From the NCBI GenBank assembly GCA_905236025.1, contig CAJOOB010000071.1, positions 1-43,438 on the forward strand: a stretch of DNA of 43,438 nucleotides, read 5' to 3'. The stretch comes from an uncultured Lachnospiraceae bacterium. GTDB taxonomy: Bacteria > Bacillota > Clostridia > Lachnospirales > Lachnospiraceae. Position 1 is the first letter of the stretch. Each line of letters starts with the position of its first letter. The notes below the pieces were generated by a model, which was not told the origin of the DNA, did not search any database, and worked only from the letters and a program-made list of their open reading frames with translations. Below, in pieces: positions 11,789 to 18,997 of this stretch. The position numbers and the translations under genes were made by a program.

Positions 11789-13981
11789 ATGAGCATTATT
11801 TTTGATAATGAAAAGAAAGCTTTTTTGTTAAATACAAAAACCACTTCATACATTATGCATATTTTTAAGGATAAATACCTTATGCATGTTTACTGGGGAG
11901 AAAAGATGAAACTCCCAAATATGTTAAATGCTATTCCGCCAAGGGGTGTTGGCTTTGGTGCCAATCCTGATTCTAACGACAAAACATATTCACTTACGGC
12001 TATGCGCCTTGAATATCCGTGGTCAGGCGGTACAGATTACAGAAATACCGCGCTGGACGTCACTTTTTGCGACGGAAGCCACACAACCGAATTAAGATAC
12101 GAAAAATATGAAATAATAAAGGGAAAACCTGCGCTTTTAGGCCTTCCGTCAACTTATACGGAAAGTGATGATGAGGCGGACACCCTTTTTATCACTTTAA
12201 AAGATGCGCTTATGGACCTTTATGTGGTTCTTTCATATACGGTTTATACAGAAAGAGACGTTATTACCAGAAGCGTAAAAATCATAAATAACGGTAAGAA
12301 TGCCTTGACAATTGATAAGGTTCTTAGCGCAAACGTTGACTTTGAGGCCGATTACCGTGATTATACCCTTATGCGCTTACACGGAAGCTGGGCAAGAGAA
12401 AGACACATTGAATACCAGCCTCTTGCACACGGAATCCAGAAGATTGAAAGCCACAGAGGTGCAAGTTCGCATCAGGCAAATCCTTTTATTGCAATGGTTT
12501 CAAAGGACGCAACGGAAGATTACGGAAACGTCTATGCAATGAACTTTGTTTACAGCGGAAACTTTGAAGCGGGCGTTGAAGTCTGCGAGCTTGGTAAACC
12601 AAGGATGTTTATGGGCCTTAACGGGTATGAATTTGCCTGGGAACTTAAAAGCGGAGATGAATTTGTTGCACCGGAAGTTGTGATGGTTTATTCAAATGAA
12701 GGCCTTGGCAAAATGAGCCGCACCTTCCACGATTTGTACCGCGAAAGACTTGTAAGAGGCAAATACAGAGACGAAGCAAGACCAATCCTTGTTAATAACT
12801 GGGAAGGTACATACTTTGACTTTAATGAAGAAAAGATTGTAAATATTGCAAAAGAAGCAGCAAATTTAGGCATTGAACTTATGGTTCTTGACGACGGCTG
12901 GTTTGGTACAAGAAATGACGATACGACGTCGCTTGGCGATTGGACTCCTAATTACGAGAAGTTACCGGGCGGAATCTGTGGTCTTGCTAAAAAGGTTAAC
13001 GAGGTTGGCCTTAAGTTTGGACTATGGTTTGAGCCGGAGATGGTATCTGCCGTAAGTAACCTTTATAACGAGCATCCGGACTGGTGTATCCATGTAAAGG
13101 ACAGGAACAGATCTCAGTGCAGACACCAGCATACGCTTGATTTAAGCAGAAAAGATGTTCAGGATTATGTAATTTCAGCAATTAACGGCGTTTTGGATTC
13201 CGCAAATATTTCATACGTTAAATGGGATATGAACAGACACATGACAGAGCCCGGCTCTGCGTTACTTGATGCTAAGAATCAAAAAGAGATGCCGCACAGA
13301 TATATGCTTGGTCTTTACAGATGTATGAATGAAATTACAAAGGCTCATCCGGATGTGCTGTTTGAAAGTTGTTCGGGTGGCGGCGGAAGATTTGATCCGG
13401 GTATTTTATATTACATGCCTCAAACATGGACAAGTGATGATACTGACGCGGTTGAAAGACTTTATATTCAGTACGGAACAAGCATGGCATATCCAACATC
13501 TTCAATGGGTGCACATGTATCGGCCGTTCCAAATCATCAGGTTGGCAGAATTACTTCTCTTAAGGCAAGGGGAGACGTTGCAATGAGCGGTAATTTTGGA
13601 TATGAGCTTGATTTGACAAACTTAAGTGCCGAAGAAAAAGAGATTGTAAAGAATCAGGTAAAGACATACAAGATGTTACGTGAGTTTGTGCCTTCAAGCG
13701 ATATGTACAGACTTATTGATCCGTTTAAGAAAGATGTTTGCGCGTGGGAATTTGTTTCTAAGGACAAAACAAAAGTATTTGCAGGGTATTTCAGAAAGAT
13801 GATTATACCGAATCATCCCGATGAAAGGCTTAAGTTTAAGGCACTTGACCCGGATGCTTTATACAGAGATGTTGAAAGAAACACAGAGTGGAGTGGTGAT
13901 GAATTAATGAATATCGGTATAATAACGGAATACGGAAATGATTTTACGACATGTACGTATATTCTTGAGAAAATATCATAA
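11789..13981 (+). CDS. Alpha-galactosidase, GH36-type
   Basis: DDGWFGTRNDDTTSLGDW, GLKFGLWFEPEMVS, YVKWDMNRHMTE (nucleophile Asp region), LFESCSGGGGRFDPG. Confidence 0.96.
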   Translation: MSIIFDNEKKAFLLNTKTTSYIMHIFKDKYLMHVYWGEKMKLPNMLNAIPPRGVGFGANPDSNDKTYSLTAMRLEYPWSGGTDYRNTALDVTFCDGSHTTELRYEKYEIIKGKPALLGLPSTYTESDDEADTLFITLKDALMDLYVVLSYTVYTERDVITRSVKIINNGKNALTIDKVLSANVDFEADYRDYTLMRLHGSWARERHIEYQPLAHGIQKIESHRGASSHQANPFIAMVSKDATEDYGNVYAMNFVYSGNFEAGVEVCELGKPRMFMGLNGYEFAWELKSGDEFVAPEVVMVYSNEGLGKMSRTFHDLYRERLVRGKYRDEARPILVNNWEGTYFDFNEEKIVNIAKEAANLGIELMVLDDGWFGTRNDDTTSLGDWTPNYEKLPGGICGLAKKVNEVGLKFGLWFEPEMVSAVSNLYNEHPDWCIHVKDRNRSQCRHQHTLDLSRKDVQDYVISAINGVLDSANISYVKWDMNRHMTEPGSALLDAKNQKEMPHRYMLGLYRCMNEITKAHPDVLFESCSGGGGRFDPGILYYMPQTWTSDDTDAVERLYIQYGTSMAYPTSSMGAHVSAVPNHQVGRITSLKARGDVAMSGNFGYELDLTNLSAEEKEIVKNQVKTYKMLREFVPSSDMYRLIDPFKKDVCAWEFVSKDKTKVFAGYFRKMIIPNHPDERLKFKALDPDALYRDVERNTEWSGDELMNIGIITEYGNDFTTCTYILEKIS

Positions 13982-14010
13982 AGACTATTAATAAAATATC
14001 TTTAGATAGT

Positions 14011-14046
14011 AAACGCCCGACTTGTATTAATACAAGCCGGGTGTTT
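14011..14046 (+). terminator. Stem-loop terminator after the alpha-galactosidase gene
   Basis: aaacgcccgacttgtatta / taatacaagccgggtgttt near-perfect inverted repeat just downstream of the stop codon. Confidence 0.7.
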
Positions 14047-14097
14047 GCTAATATGTATAATGTGAGGGAAAGTGCGTGTAGCGTCATTTCTACACAC

Positions 14098-14138
14098 AAA
14101 AAGACGAGGACATCCATATTAAGACATCCTCGTCTATG
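14098..14138 (-). ncRNA. Putative very short minus-strand transcript: promoter followed immediately by a terminator-like hairpin
   Basis: On the minus strand: TTTACA (14167-14172), 16 bp, TATAAT (14145-14150), then agacgagga-N16-tcctcgtct followed by TTTTTG. Confidence 0.35.
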
Positions 14139-14144
14139 TCAACT

Positions 14145-14172
14145 ATTATATACGAATTTAAAAATTTGTAAA
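14145..14172 (-). promoter_or_regulatory. Putative sigma-A promoter reading leftward
   Basis: Minus strand TTTACA-N16-TATAAT. Confidence 0.45.
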
Positions 14173-14200
14173 GTACTTTTTTCAATTTGACAGATTCAGC

Positions 14201-14231
14201 TTGACAATATATATATATATATATATATAAT
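14201..14231 (+). promoter_or_regulatory. Putative promoter of the membrane cassette with an (AT)11 spacer
   Basis: TTGACA (14201-14206), alternating AT tract, TATAAT (14226-14231); spacer 19 bp as sequenced. A second TTGACA lies at 14187-14192. Confidence 0.65.
14207..14228. repeat. Dinucleotide microsatellite (AT)11
   Basis: Uninterrupted alternating AT directly downstream of TTGACA. Confidence 0.98.
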
Positions 14232-14268
14232 ATTCTCAAACATTTACACAAATGAACGGAGGTATTAT

Positions 14269-14757
14269 ATGAACAAAAGAAAACAAAAACAGGCTAAAAT
14301 TGCCATTGAAGTGGTATTGGCTGCTGCTTCACTTGTAGTAGCTGTGGCAAGTTTGATTGCAACGATCATTCTGACTAATATCAGTGTTAAGAACTATGAT
14401 GCTCGATGGGCTACATTAGCAAAATCGTCTGATGAGGTGTTTGTTTCATTCGATACAAATGATTTATATGGTTTTGCGGACGTTATTGCTGATGCAGGTA
14501 CTGTAAAATATGGTTTGTATCAATTGAGTGGGCGCGTGGGAACAATATATACGTATACCATTTATTACAAGAGATCAGACAAGACAGATTACAAATACTC
14601 GTATAAGATAGACGGGATTTTAGCAAATGGTGAGAACGGTAAGGTTGGATTAATAAAGCTTGTCAGCAGTTCGACTGCACAAAAGTATAATATAAAAATT
14701 GAAAGAAATAATACCGGCAAGGCTGCAACGGTTGTCTTTGATTGGGGAATATATTGA
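14269..14757 (+). CDS. Small single-pass secreted/anchored protein of unknown function (162 aa)
   Basis: GGAGG SD before ATG 14269; basic N-terminus, one hydrophobic helix (AIEVVLAAASLVVAVASLIATIILTNISV), then a polar, basic, Tyr/Lys-rich domain ending VVFDWGIY. Confidence 0.8.
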   Translation: MNKRKQKQAKIAIEVVLAAASLVVAVASLIATIILTNISVKNYDARWATLAKSSDEVFVSFDTNDLYGFADVIADAGTVKYGLYQLSGRVGTIYTYTIYYKRSDKTDYKYSYKIDGILANGENGKVGLIKLVSSSTAQKYNIKIERNNTGKAATVVFDWGIY

Positions 14758-14788
14758 TTTTAATTTTTGATTGGAGAGTACAAATTTA

Positions 14789-16669
14789 ATGATTTATAAA
14801 AACATTATCAATAAGTCATATCTTAATAAGAATGTCAGTTTTGATTTTTCGCTTAACGGTCTGTACGTATTTAAAGGACCAAACGGTTGCGGAAAAACAA
14901 CTATCATCGAAGAAATTCTTTTTGATCGAGACGAAACTCATTATAAATTTCATGATGCGGAAACAGAGAAAATGTTTCATTCAGCAAGATTTAATGTCTT
15001 TTCTTATGTCCCTCAAAAAATATTGTACAGTGAGCTTAAGGTAAGTGATTATATCAATAAGTTAAACATATTGAATAGCGATGAAAAGATTCTTTATTAT
15101 CTTGAATTGTTTGGGATGAATAAAGCGATTTTGGATAATAAATTCTGTTATCTTTCCGGCGGTGAGCAGATGAAAATCTCCATTATTTCCGCTTTGGTGA
15201 AAGACACACCTTATCTTTTTATGGATGAACCAACCAATTATCTTGATGATAATTCTGTTACTGCGCTAAAGGGAATTATTTCAGAAGAAGCAAAAAAACG
15301 AAGAATAATACTTGTTACACATGATCCGAGACTTATATTTGAAAATGCATCAAGTATAGATACTGATGTAGATATGCCAAGGTTTGAAGGCGATAGTTTA
15401 CAGGATGGGTCAGAAAGGCAGATCTTCGATTACAGTGAAAAAAAGACAAAATACCCGAAATTATGGAAGATTCTCACGGCTTTCGGGAAAAAGTTCAGCT
15501 TCCTGGTATCTGTATATGTGTTTATTATATTTCTTGCCATGATGATGACTCTTTCCAATATGGATTTTGAAAATTCCGTTTCAAATGAAGAAATGAACGA
15601 GAGTGGGGACATACTGGTTTATCGTGTGGGAGGATATCATGACGAAGTGAATGAGAACTATGAGTATGGAGAGGGATTAAATGTGGATCCCGGAAATTAT
15701 GATATTTTAGTTGTGTATGAAGATATTTCGAAGATATCAGACCTTAACGGAGTTGAAAAAATTTATGTATGTGATGAGGTATATTGCGATCAATTGCTTC
15801 TTTCGTTTTATGATGAGGATTATTCCGGTATAAGACTATATTCGTGTCCTGAAGATTTATATAATCATTATTTGGAAAATGTGGATTATTTTGGGTTGAG
15901 TGAAACGGAAGGAAGTCTCCCGCGTGACAATTCCTTTGAAGTTGCAATTTCTAAAAAAGTGTTAATATCAAATTATGGATATACCTCTGAAAATGTATCG
16001 GGGGCTATTGGAGATGAAATTGATATTAGTGGTGTAAATTATACGATAGTAGGATTTACAGCTGCTGATCTGGCGGTAGTTTCATATAATGAGGGAGAAG
16101 ATTACGGATACTACTGTTACGATGAAGAAACATACAATGATTTTGTTTCGAATTATTACGATTACTATTCGGAACTTGAAGAGTATTATATTACTCATTC
16201 GGTCAGTAATATGCTTATTTGTGTAGATGGATCTTGTGAGAGAACAGTTCTTAATTATATGATGGTCAACTATCCGGCAGATTGTTATAATTGTCTGTAT
16301 TATGCGACTGTTTCCAGAAGGGCTCAAATAAAGAAAGTATTTTTAAGATATCTGTGGATTGATTTAGCTGTTTCACTGGTATTTGGTGTAGTCGTATTTA
16401 TAATGATACGAAAATCCGTAAGATTAAATATGTATACGCTGAAGGATTTTGGTAATTATTATATGAACCGGCCTAAAATTATCAAAAAGTATATTGCGTT
16501 GCAATGTCTTATATATTTGTTCGTGGGTATATTATTGTCCGTATTTGATATAATTTACTTTGATTACGGTAAGATTACCTGGACATATATTGCAATAAAT
16601 TTTTTGTTTGCTGTTGTAGGTACATTTATAGCGTGTATGCTTGAGTATAACAAAATGAAGAAAAACTGA
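14789..16669 (+). CDS. ABC transporter ATP-binding/permease fusion, MacB-like topology (NBD, TM1, ectodomain, 3 TM)
   Basis: Walker A GPNGCGKTT, signature LSGGEQMK, Walker B YLFMDEPTN, VTHD; TM FSFLVSVYVFIIFLAMMMTL, acidic ectodomain, then three C-terminal TMs. Start placed at ATG 14789 after TTGGAGAG. Confidence 0.88.
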   Translation: MIYKNIINKSYLNKNVSFDFSLNGLYVFKGPNGCGKTTIIEEILFDRDETHYKFHDAETEKMFHSARFNVFSYVPQKILYSELKVSDYINKLNILNSDEKILYYLELFGMNKAILDNKFCYLSGGEQMKISIISALVKDTPYLFMDEPTNYLDDNSVTALKGIISEEAKKRRIILVTHDPRLIFENASSIDTDVDMPRFEGDSLQDGSERQIFDYSEKKTKYPKLWKILTAFGKKFSFLVSVYVFIIFLAMMMTLSNMDFENSVSNEEMNESGDILVYRVGGYHDEVNENYEYGEGLNVDPGNYDILVVYEDISKISDLNGVEKIYVCDEVYCDQLLLSFYDEDYSGIRLYSCPEDLYNHYLENVDYFGLSETEGSLPRDNSFEVAISKKVLISNYGYTSENVSGAIGDEIDISGVNYTIVGFTAADLAVVSYNEGEDYGYYCYDEETYNDFVSNYYDYYSELEEYYITHSVSNMLICVDGSCERTVLNYMMVNYPADCYNCLYYATVSRRAQIKKVFLRYLWIDLAVSLVFGVVVFIMIRKSVRLNMYTLKDFGNYYMNRPKIIKKYIALQCLIYLFVGILLSVFDIIYFDYGKITWTYIAINFLFAVVGTFIACMLEYNKMKKN

Positions 16670-16752
16670 TCAAAAAAAGGAAAACCGCTGTAGTACAAGC
16701 ATAAAAAATGAGTGTAAATGCCATATGTATTACGGTGGTTTTGTGTTATGTG

Positions 16753-18459
16753 ATGAAAGTAGAATTTGATAGTATTAAAATTAAAGACAGACTTATTGTT
16801 AATGCAGGCTTTATAGAAGCAACCCCCGGGGATATTGTGGTTATCAGGGGTGAAAACGGCAGTGGAAAGACGCTTTTGGCAAAAAGGATAGCTTATGAAT
16901 TGCGTAATATTGGAAAAAGTGTTGTATATTTAGATCAGGATAACGAAATCACATTAGATAAATTCAATGTTTTAAAAAGTATATCTTTAAGCGATGATAT
17001 AAATATAAATCGTAAAATGTATGAATTCTTGGAAATAAATGGATACGAATACCTTACAAGGCTTAATAATAAAACATTAAGCGGCGGTGAAAGGCGAATC
17101 ACAAATTTTATACGATGTTTTACATATGATGCGGAGTTTGTGGTGCTTGATGAACCGACCAATGATCTTGATTATGATAAAGTCGGTAAAATGATTGAGT
17201 TTATAAAAAGTAATAAAGGCGATAAAACCGTGGTAATCGTAAGTCATGATGACAGAATGCTTAAATTGTCTAATGTTGTTTATGAAATAAAAGATCACTG
17301 TTTAAACGAGATCAAAAGGGAAGATGTTGTTTGTTCTTCGATTGAAAATAAAAGAGCAATATTGACTTATCTTAATGGTTCATTTATCAGAAAGTGTATG
17401 GAATATAATCCGAGCAAAATACTGGTATTACTGATCATAGGGATTTTTTTGTTTGTCCAGATCAATTCACGAAACATGTTTTTTTTGATGTACCGGAATG
17501 ATTCTATAAGTGATATTGAAGGAACTGTTGTATATAACCACTTGACAGAAACCTCAAATAATATAATCGGTAATAATTATTTGCCAATATCCGTGCTCAG
17601 GATGTGCAGTTCTTTGAATCCACAAAATGTCATAAATTCAATAAAGCAATTTGAAAAATTTTTAAATGATGCGGATCTTGAAATAAACATTGAAGAAATA
17701 AATCTTGAAACAACAGATTCGTATGTTTTTTATCCCATTGAGTATTATGATACAAAAAATGATCTCAGGATTACCGTAATTGCTTATTATGAAGAAAAAT
17801 ACGGAATCGGTGAATCTGAATATGTTGATACATCAGAATATTTTTACGCTCCGTATAATATAAAACAGGAGTGGGAAAGTGAAGTTTTGATAGATATTGA
17901 AAAATATTATGAATGTGTAGAGGAACTTGAATCAAATGAGAATTATATTACGGTAGCCGGATATGTTGAATTCATTGATATCTCTTTGTCGGAGTTTTTG
18001 GATTATGAGGAAATAAAGGCGTTGGGCACCGGCTATGTGAGTATTGCTTCAACGGAAGTTAAAGAAGCGCTGTATACATTGAAAATGTATGGTGAAGTTT
18101 TTGGAGAATTAAAAAGAATAGGTATTTGCAGTTCGATTTTGTTGGTTGTGGAAGTTTCACTTCAGGTTCTGTTTATGAAAAATCAAAGATGTAATATATA
18201 TTTTTATCGGAATTTCGGAATCGGATATGAAACGCTTAGTGAGGCATACAGAAAAAAATTTAATAACAGATTACCGGCTTTGGCAGTATGTATTATTATG
18301 TGCATTGCAGCACTTTACTTACTTAATAAAAACGGTTTTTATCAAAGTAATCTTTTGTATGTAAGTATTCCTGTCATTTACTGCAGTTTCAGTTATTTTG
18401 TGTGTAATCTTATTACAAACGGATTTATAAAAAAGTATTACAGGTGGGATGCGCGATGA
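16753..18459 (+). CDS. Second ABC transporter ATP-binding/permease fusion, MacB-like topology
   Basis: Walker A GENGSGKTL, signature LSGGERR, Walker B FVVLDEPTND, VSHDD; one TM, ectodomain, then three TMs. Start ambiguous between 16708 and 16753; MKVEFDSIKI is the likelier N-terminus. Confidence 0.85.
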   Translation: MKVEFDSIKIKDRLIVNAGFIEATPGDIVVIRGENGSGKTLLAKRIAYELRNIGKSVVYLDQDNEITLDKFNVLKSISLSDDININRKMYEFLEINGYEYLTRLNNKTLSGGERRITNFIRCFTYDAEFVVLDEPTNDLDYDKVGKMIEFIKSNKGDKTVVIVSHDDRMLKLSNVVYEIKDHCLNEIKREDVVCSSIENKRAILTYLNGSFIRKCMEYNPSKILVLLIIGIFLFVQINSRNMFFLMYRNDSISDIEGTVVYNHLTETSNNIIGNNYLPISVLRMCSSLNPQNVINSIKQFEKFLNDADLEINIEEINLETTDSYVFYPIEYYDTKNDLRITVIAYYEEKYGIGESEYVDTSEYFYAPYNIKQEWESEVLIDIEKYYECVEELESNENYITVAGYVEFIDISLSEFLDYEEIKALGTGYVSIASTEVKEALYTLKMYGEVFGELKRIGICSSILLVVEVSLQVLFMKNQRCNIYFYRNFGIGYETLSEAYRKKFNNRLPALAVCIIMCIAALYLLNKNGFYQSNLLYVSIPVIYCSFSYFVCNLITNGFIKKYYRWDAR

Positions 18460-18890
18460 TTTTTGAACATGTTCTTGAAATATATGCTTTATTATTGGCT
18501 TCTGTATTTCTTCATGAGTTGGGGCATTTTGCGGTTGCAAAAATTATAGGTTTATACAATATAACGCTTCATATTGGCGACAGATTCTTTTCGGTGCATA
18601 TCGGAAGGTTTTATATTTCTCCTTTTATGTTTAAAGGTGGTGGAATTGACTATTATGATGAAGATTTAAGCAGGTTTTCGATTTATAAAAAAGTCATGTT
18701 CTTCGGGAGTGGCGTATTTGTAAATCTTTTGATGCTTGCAGCAGGATATATCTGGTCAAAAAGTAATGTCTTATATGGAGACAGTTTTATGTGGATAAAC
18801 GTATATCTCATAATCCAGAATATCATTCCCCTCAAATGGCTTGATAATGACGGGTATAAAATATGGCTGACATGTTTTAAGAATAAATAA
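18456..18890 (+). CDS. Minimal M50-family (site-2-protease-like) membrane metalloprotease
   Basis: FLHELGHFAVAKIIG (HExxH in TM) and IIQNIIPLKWLDNDGYKI (second metal-ligand motif, N..P..LDxDG type); ATGA overlap with the upstream gene's stop. Confidence 0.83.
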   Translation: MIFEHVLEIYALLLASVFLHELGHFAVAKIIGLYNITLHIGDRFFSVHIGRFYISPFMFKGGGIDYYDEDLSRFSIYKKVMFFGSGVFVNLLMLAAGYIWSKSNVLYGDSFMWINVYLIIQNIIPLKWLDNDGYKIWLTCFKNK

Positions 18891-18908
18891 TTTAATTTGC
18901 AGACAGAA

Positions 18909-18950
18909 TAAAAACAGATCCGATGTGAGGTAACGTCGGATCTGTTTTTA
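18909..18950. terminator. Bidirectional Rho-independent terminator between convergent genes
   Basis: aaaaacagatccga ... tcggatctgttttt with flanking A/T tracts. Confidence 0.85.
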
Positions 18951-18997
18951 TTTTTTGTATCCTGCAATGCAGGAAAATATTGAATATTAATAAATGA

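Follow-up and report, generated by a model that had tools for sequence, protein, structure and literature searches.

In Bacillus subtilis, the epeXEPAB operon (yydFGHIJ) joins the gene of a short precursor peptide to genes for a radical SAM epimerase, an M50 protease and an ABC transporter made of one ATPase and one permease. For toxin production, EpeP, the M50 protease, is sufficient (PMC10885120); EpeAB, the ABC pair, makes the producer partially resistant to EpeX (PMC7614699). ABC transporters of the MacB family (type VII, mechanotransmission: MacAB, LolCDE, BceAB and FtsEX) have an N-terminal NBD, four TM segments and a large ectodomain between TM1 and TM2, and use ATP for work outside the membrane (PMC5985334). 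In lactococcin 972-type loci (e.g. scbABC), a small product gene is followed by membrane and transporter genes that are thought to act in immunity or export, their function being untested (PMC11796350).

The locus described here lies in a window of 43,438 nucleotides, meaning the whole stretch of DNA that was analysed, from an uncultured Lachnospiraceae bacterium. The host genome (1.84 Mb, incomplete) is the sole member of its genus among the genomes compared. Four co-directional genes, g1-g2-g3-M50, were located from the ORF listing and the sequence where the original prediction had placed them, and their intact ABC motifs and ATGA-coupled M50 gene were confirmed by ORFs, motifs and Pfam. The features of the locus are:

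14016-14041, no strand assigned: left hairpin terminator, with its T-run on the minus strand in the terminator scan
14102-14135, minus strand: second, terminator-like hairpin left of the cassette, from the terminator scan
14201-14234, plus strand: candidate promoter, with TTGACA at 14201-14206, an (AT)11A run at 14207-14229 and TATAAT at a 19-nt spacer
14269-14757, plus strand: g1, 162 aa, one TM segment
14789-16669, plus strand: g2, ATG start, 626 aa, a MacB-type fusion of the form NBD-TM1-ectodomain-TM2-3-4
16753-18459, plus strand: g3, ATG start, 568 aa, second NBD-permease fusion, MacB topology
18456-18890, plus strand: g4 (M50), ATG start, 144 aa, predicted minimal intramembrane metalloprotease
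18906-18953, no strand assigned: right terminator, strong, its stem of 20 pairs flanked by runs of A and T and so usable from both sides

Both bounding terminators had been predicted, and the scan added the hairpin at 14102-14135. The ATG at 14789, preceded by GGAGAG, is a better start for g2 than the listed upstream TTG at 14771, and 16708 is a possible alternative start for g3. Ribosome sites are plausible for g1, g2 and g4. The genes are separated by 31 nt (g1/g2) and 83 nt (g2/g3), and the g3 stop overlaps the M50 start by 4 nt.

Five complete cassettes were identified: that of the window and those of G189 and G054 (two other Lachnospiraceae genera), Alkalibaculum sporogenes (G931) and G1252, which belongs to another class. 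Proteins were 22-37% identical between loci. All four genes of G189 follow the window's order, each 28-29% identical to its counterpart. The order is g1-g3-g2-M50 in A. sporogenes and G1252, both found by the g2-permease profile, and in G054, found by the g1 profile, two tandem g1 paralogues (44% identical) precede g3, g2 and M50. Gene set, strand and coupling were alike in the five genomes and the flanks were unrelated. The small-protein gene that the original prediction had tied to the ABC and M50 genes was present beside them at every one of these loci.

The g1 profile found the cassette in 3 of 220 genomes of the family sample. The full g2 profile was swamped by common NBDs; permease-only profiles worked, and the g2-permease profile matched 3 of 391 genomes in the class sample (one of them with an orphan permease) and 2 of 349 in the phylum sample. 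Within the family, an M50 profile returned mostly RseP-like proteases and M50s of ~390 aa from other contexts and missed G054, so that its count of 2 of 397 is too low. A single-sequence M50 scan of the genome collection gave no matches, and no cassette was found by tblastn against plasmids and phages. The IMG/VR M50 matches examined were phage-contig M50s without ABC fusions, a g1 match in G064 was a false positive, and the match in G1347 covered 60 positions within an 831-aa frame. The cassette is rare and patchy. Its GC was lower than that of the flanks at all five loci (32.6 vs 37.9, 44.0 vs 54.8, 23.3 vs 26.1, 38.8 vs 43.9-55.4 and 27.4 vs 35.2), and no mobility gene was seen with the cassettes; the rare, patchy occurrence and lower GC fit horizontal spread. 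A search of open-access papers returned no description of such an arrangement. The cassette is real and conserved, and apparently undescribed.

Orphan g2-type permeases of about 360-380 aa, which have no NBD, occur in Listeria marthii, L. cossartiae and L. monocytogenes (L061:9743-10888, L060:9749-10834 and L078:5001-5645) between beta-glucosidase and internalin-type LRR genes (annotated as inlC-type in L. monocytogenes), and no g1, g3 or M50 was seen beside them. Another lone g2-type permease, without NBD or partners, was found in Clostridiaceae bacterium DTU079 (L054:7854-9041). The occurrence of NBD-less forms in two lineages suggests decay or separate use.

Both ABC genes had been described as MacB-like fusions. 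The motifs of g2 (GPNGCGKT, LSGGE and LFMDEP) and g3 (GENGSGKT, LSGGE, VVLDEP and VSHD) were accompanied by Pfam ABC_tran matches above the cut-off (7e-16 and 8e-12, respectively), and Walker A, an (L/M)SGGE signature and the Glu of Walker B are present in all ten NBDs of the five loci. By hydropathy, the MacB-family layout was recovered in nine of the ten proteins; in the tenth, a g3, TM3 fell below the threshold. MacB_PCD was matched by four of six g2-type permeases (best 1e-6, below or near the cut-off; weakly by the window's g2, 0.0046) and by no g3-type protein. The g3 ectodomains had no match in Pfam and none to the g2 ectodomains. A putative MacB periplasmic core domain is thus recognisable in g2 only, and for g3 the label holds by topology alone. 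Because the g3 ectodomains match neither Pfam families nor those of g2, a g2-g3 complex, if formed, would be asymmetric outside the membrane. Phylogenetic reconstruction across the five loci placed g2 and g3 in two deep clades with support of 100/100 each. This indicates that the pair is old and has been kept, and lends support to the heteromeric pairing proposed originally.

The window's M50 protein has HELGH and D-N-D and matched Peptidase_M50 at 6.7e-8 (32.6 bits vs a cut-off of 27.2). The motif, which the original prediction required to be sound in homologues, is not degenerate: HExxH and the distal Asp are intact in all five M50s, with distal motifs DND, NSD, NTD, SND and NTD, so that an Asp is conserved and LDNDG as such is not. 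A profile of the cassette M50s matched RseP-type proteases of solved structure (E 2e-6). By profile and zinc-ligand residues these proteins belong to peptidase family M50, and they are predicted to be proteases. They share HExxH, the distal Asp and a multi-pass form with the site-2/RseP/SpoIVFB proteases, but at 137-149 aa they amount to a minimal core that leaves no room for a PDZ domain, and their genes sit within an ABC cassette. The M50 start overlaps or directly abuts the preceding ABC gene at all five loci; the frame in A. sporogenes has no ATG, GTG or TTG at its start, and its probable first codon is a CTG or ATT immediately following the g2 stop.

A 30-aa remnant in the window's own genome, just upstream of rpoB (contig C136, L015:575-664), resembles the C-terminal end of the window's M50 (57% identity) and has an internal stop; it is possibly the relic of a second, decayed cassette. 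A distinct M50 family was also seen in Lachnospiraceae (L047:7387-8535, L048:7767-8951 and L049:6886-8043), without adjoining ABC genes. Its members, of ~385 aa, have a long C-terminal domain, and their FR(I/V)G ... G(T)xGQC motif is related.

The g1 proteins are 138-164 aa long across loci. Hydropathy and charge indicate that all six are N-in, with a short net-positive tail and one TM segment followed by 110-128 residues of outer domain; in the window, this gives a type II single-pass protein with its TM segment at about residues 16-34. The cytoplasmic tail has only about 7-15 residues and carries no domain. The ectodomain had been called basic and rich in Tyr and Lys; it is indeed Tyr-rich, but its net charge is only +2, with homologues ranging from -3 to +7. 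No credible Pfam family was found for the window's protein, and neither Pfam, NCBIfam, PADLOC nor the PDB yielded a solid sequence match for g1. AlphaFold2 modelled the window's g1 as a helix and eight strands with low confidence (pLDDT 60), so that claims about the fold rest on the ectodomain of a G054 homologue (g1b), modelled as a sandwich of eight main strands (pLDDT 88.9, pTM 0.83). Its best Foldseek matches were jelly-roll and GOLD-type domains at TM-scores of 0.55-0.60, without a consensus on function; the fold matches include carbohydrate- and collagen-binding modules, and the scores point to no specific ligand. The outer domain of g1 (~110 residues) is thus predicted to be a folded, jelly-roll-like beta sandwich, unlike a short peptide, which makes the earlier label of a peptide system misleading. 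A toxin under diversifying pressure would be expected to diverge faster, and this did not appear: g1 diverged no faster than its partner genes and kept pace with the ABC genes.

The cassette is closest in logic to epe, with a product gene, an M50 protease and an ABC transporter together, but fails its defining features. The window M50's best NCBIfam equivalog match is YydH/LiaK (E 0.0017), at 18 bits vs a cut-off of 225 and so outside that equivalog, and only one of the five cassette M50s matches it at all; the g3 NBD matches YydI weakly (43.5 bits vs 240 needed). No radical SAM epimerase was found among the ORFs in or next to the window's cassette or in the other four cassettes, the product is an anchored protein of 138-164 aa with a predicted folded domain rather than a short peptide, and two NBD-permease fusions take the place of the separate ATPase and permease. 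Heteromeric pairs are known in the MacB family (LolCE), and the g2 ectodomains show some resemblance to MacB_PCD; however, the cassette pairs two different NBD-permease fusions, g3 having an ectodomain of no known family, and it has an M50 partner and no kinase. It also differs from MacAB in having no MacA/HlyD-type adaptor gene, and no adaptor family in Pfam matches g1. The product of lactococcin 972-type loci is a small beta-sandwich, like the predicted outer domain of g1. Those precursors carry a cleaved signal peptide, unlike g1, and the loci are not known to include an M50 protease; sequence kinship was not supported, with no match for four g1 proteins in Pfam or six in NCBIfam at E up to 5. 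Among the anti-phage defence systems of PADLOC, only NBD-type matches were obtained for g2 and g3 and none for g1 or M50, and no named family or system among Pfam, NCBIfam and PADLOC covers the cassette. The original interpretation is partly supported: recurrence, the heteromeric pair and the lack of a named system favour it, and it gives way on the peptide and the basic domain.

The cassette is best read as a version of the epeXEPAB layout that is built around a protein. We consider it evenly poised whether the genes form a four-component membrane system in which the M50 frees g1, the heteromeric ABC pair exports or clears it, and the released domain acts on competitors. g1 would be made N-in/C-out (type II), with its jelly-roll-like domain outside the membrane; the minimal M50 would cut within the anchor and free this domain; g2 and g3 would assemble into a heteromeric complex of the MacB (mechanotransmission) family and act on g1 from the outer face, either pulling it out and releasing it or clearing it from the producer's membrane (immunity); and the freed domain would most likely act on competitors. 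The analysis shows the gene content, its recurrence, intact active sites, a topology from hydropathy and the predicted fold of a homologous ectodomain; cleavage, complex formation, export or immunity, and antagonism are inferred. In favour of this reading are the complete sets amid unrelated flanks in genomes of two classes, the two clades of ABC fusions, the intact zinc ligands and close coupling of the M50s, the tandem g1 paralogues of G054 and the low GC of every cassette. Site-2 proteases cut substrates of type II orientation, and a role of g1 as M50 substrate fits its N-in/C-out anchor. Cleavage of the anchor is proposed because g1 has this orientation, all five M50 genes are coupled to an ABC gene and EpeP suffices for toxin production in epe. 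Because the MacB family does ATP-driven work outside the membrane, g2-g3 may extract g1, or clear it much as EpeAB partially protects against EpeX. Site-2 proteases usually need the ectodomain to be trimmed first, and the set contains no second protease, which counts against cleavage by the M50. In A. sporogenes the cassette is flanked, by ORF reading, by an agrBDCA-like quorum-sensing operon on one side and by a small secreted protein and ABC-2-type genes on the other (L053:3454-7627 and 13354-16253), possibly a bacteriocin island. In G1252 (L064:1171-4517) the M50 directly precedes a 192-aa Ser/Tyr-rich secreted protein, a 324-aa protein, and an ABC-2-type ATPase and permease; the 192-aa and 324-aa proteins have no Pfam family. 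A small secreted protein with ABC-2 genes thus adjoins two cassettes; agr and ABC-2 neighbours are absent at the window and G189. Such neighbours favour a role in competition. The even divergence of g1 and its partners counts against the epe-like reading, as do the lack of such neighbours at the window and G189 and a jelly-roll fold common to binding domains of many functions.

The main alternative, a serious contender although we think it less likely than not, is a pump for envelope detoxification or sensing, in which the ABC pair serves to remove or detect some compound from outside, g1 is an anchored accessory or receptor, and the M50 turns g1 over or tunes it. MacAB and BceAB act in this way. 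MacB-family members commonly do so, in some cases together with a partner that has one TM segment, for example MacA (PMC5985334). The equal divergence of g1 and the ABC genes and the frequent ligand binding of jelly-roll domains also agree with such a pump, but the set has no adaptor or kinase homologue and G054 carries two tandem g1 genes. Pumps of this kind are not known to have a role for an M50, which is obligate here. It is unlikely that g1 is instead a binding protein (lectin-, carbohydrate- or matrix-binding) that is released to act at surfaces or in the environment and kills nothing, with M50 and ABC proteins as release machinery. The carbohydrate- and collagen-binding fold matches and the gut, rumen and digester anaerobes that host the cassette suit this, yet ordinary binding proteins carry a signal peptide and leave via Sec, four genes devoted to release would be unusual, and fold matches at TM-scores of 0.5-0.6 do not single out a ligand. 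Signalling is a classic role of M50 proteases, and the type II orientation fits a substrate of regulated intramembrane proteolysis, but cleavage of g1 to yield a cytoplasmic signal is very improbable given its short, domain-free tail and a cassette without a sigma or anti-sigma gene. Chance adjacency of four unrelated genes, with which the window alone would be compatible, is scarcely credible when set, strand and coupling are repeated in five genomes with unrelated flanks.

The candidate promoter before g1 was absent from the original description of the locus. Its AT run is 23 nt long, whereas none exceeded 13 nt in 200 simulated windows, and a spacing of TTGACA-17-TATAAT would result if a single AT unit were lost. 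Slipped-strand change in the run could therefore make expression from the g1 promoter phase-variable, an idea limited to this genome; the TTGACA-(AT)n-TATAAT arrangement was not found at the other four cassette loci. The boldest form of the favoured epe-like reading, which we advance tentatively and think more doubtful than the four-component system itself, is a new class of antagonism or secretion in which an M50 and an obligate heteromeric MacB-type machine mature and launch an anchored jelly-roll protein toxin without leader peptide, modification enzyme or adaptor, here under a phase-variable promoter. If the epe-like reading is true, the logic of M50 and ABC proteins known from small modified peptides (epipeptide) would extend to a folded, membrane-anchored protein. 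The cassette would also be a compact setting in which to study how heteromeric machines of the MacB family act on substrates outside the membrane, and the five aligned cassettes define it well enough for searches and tests.
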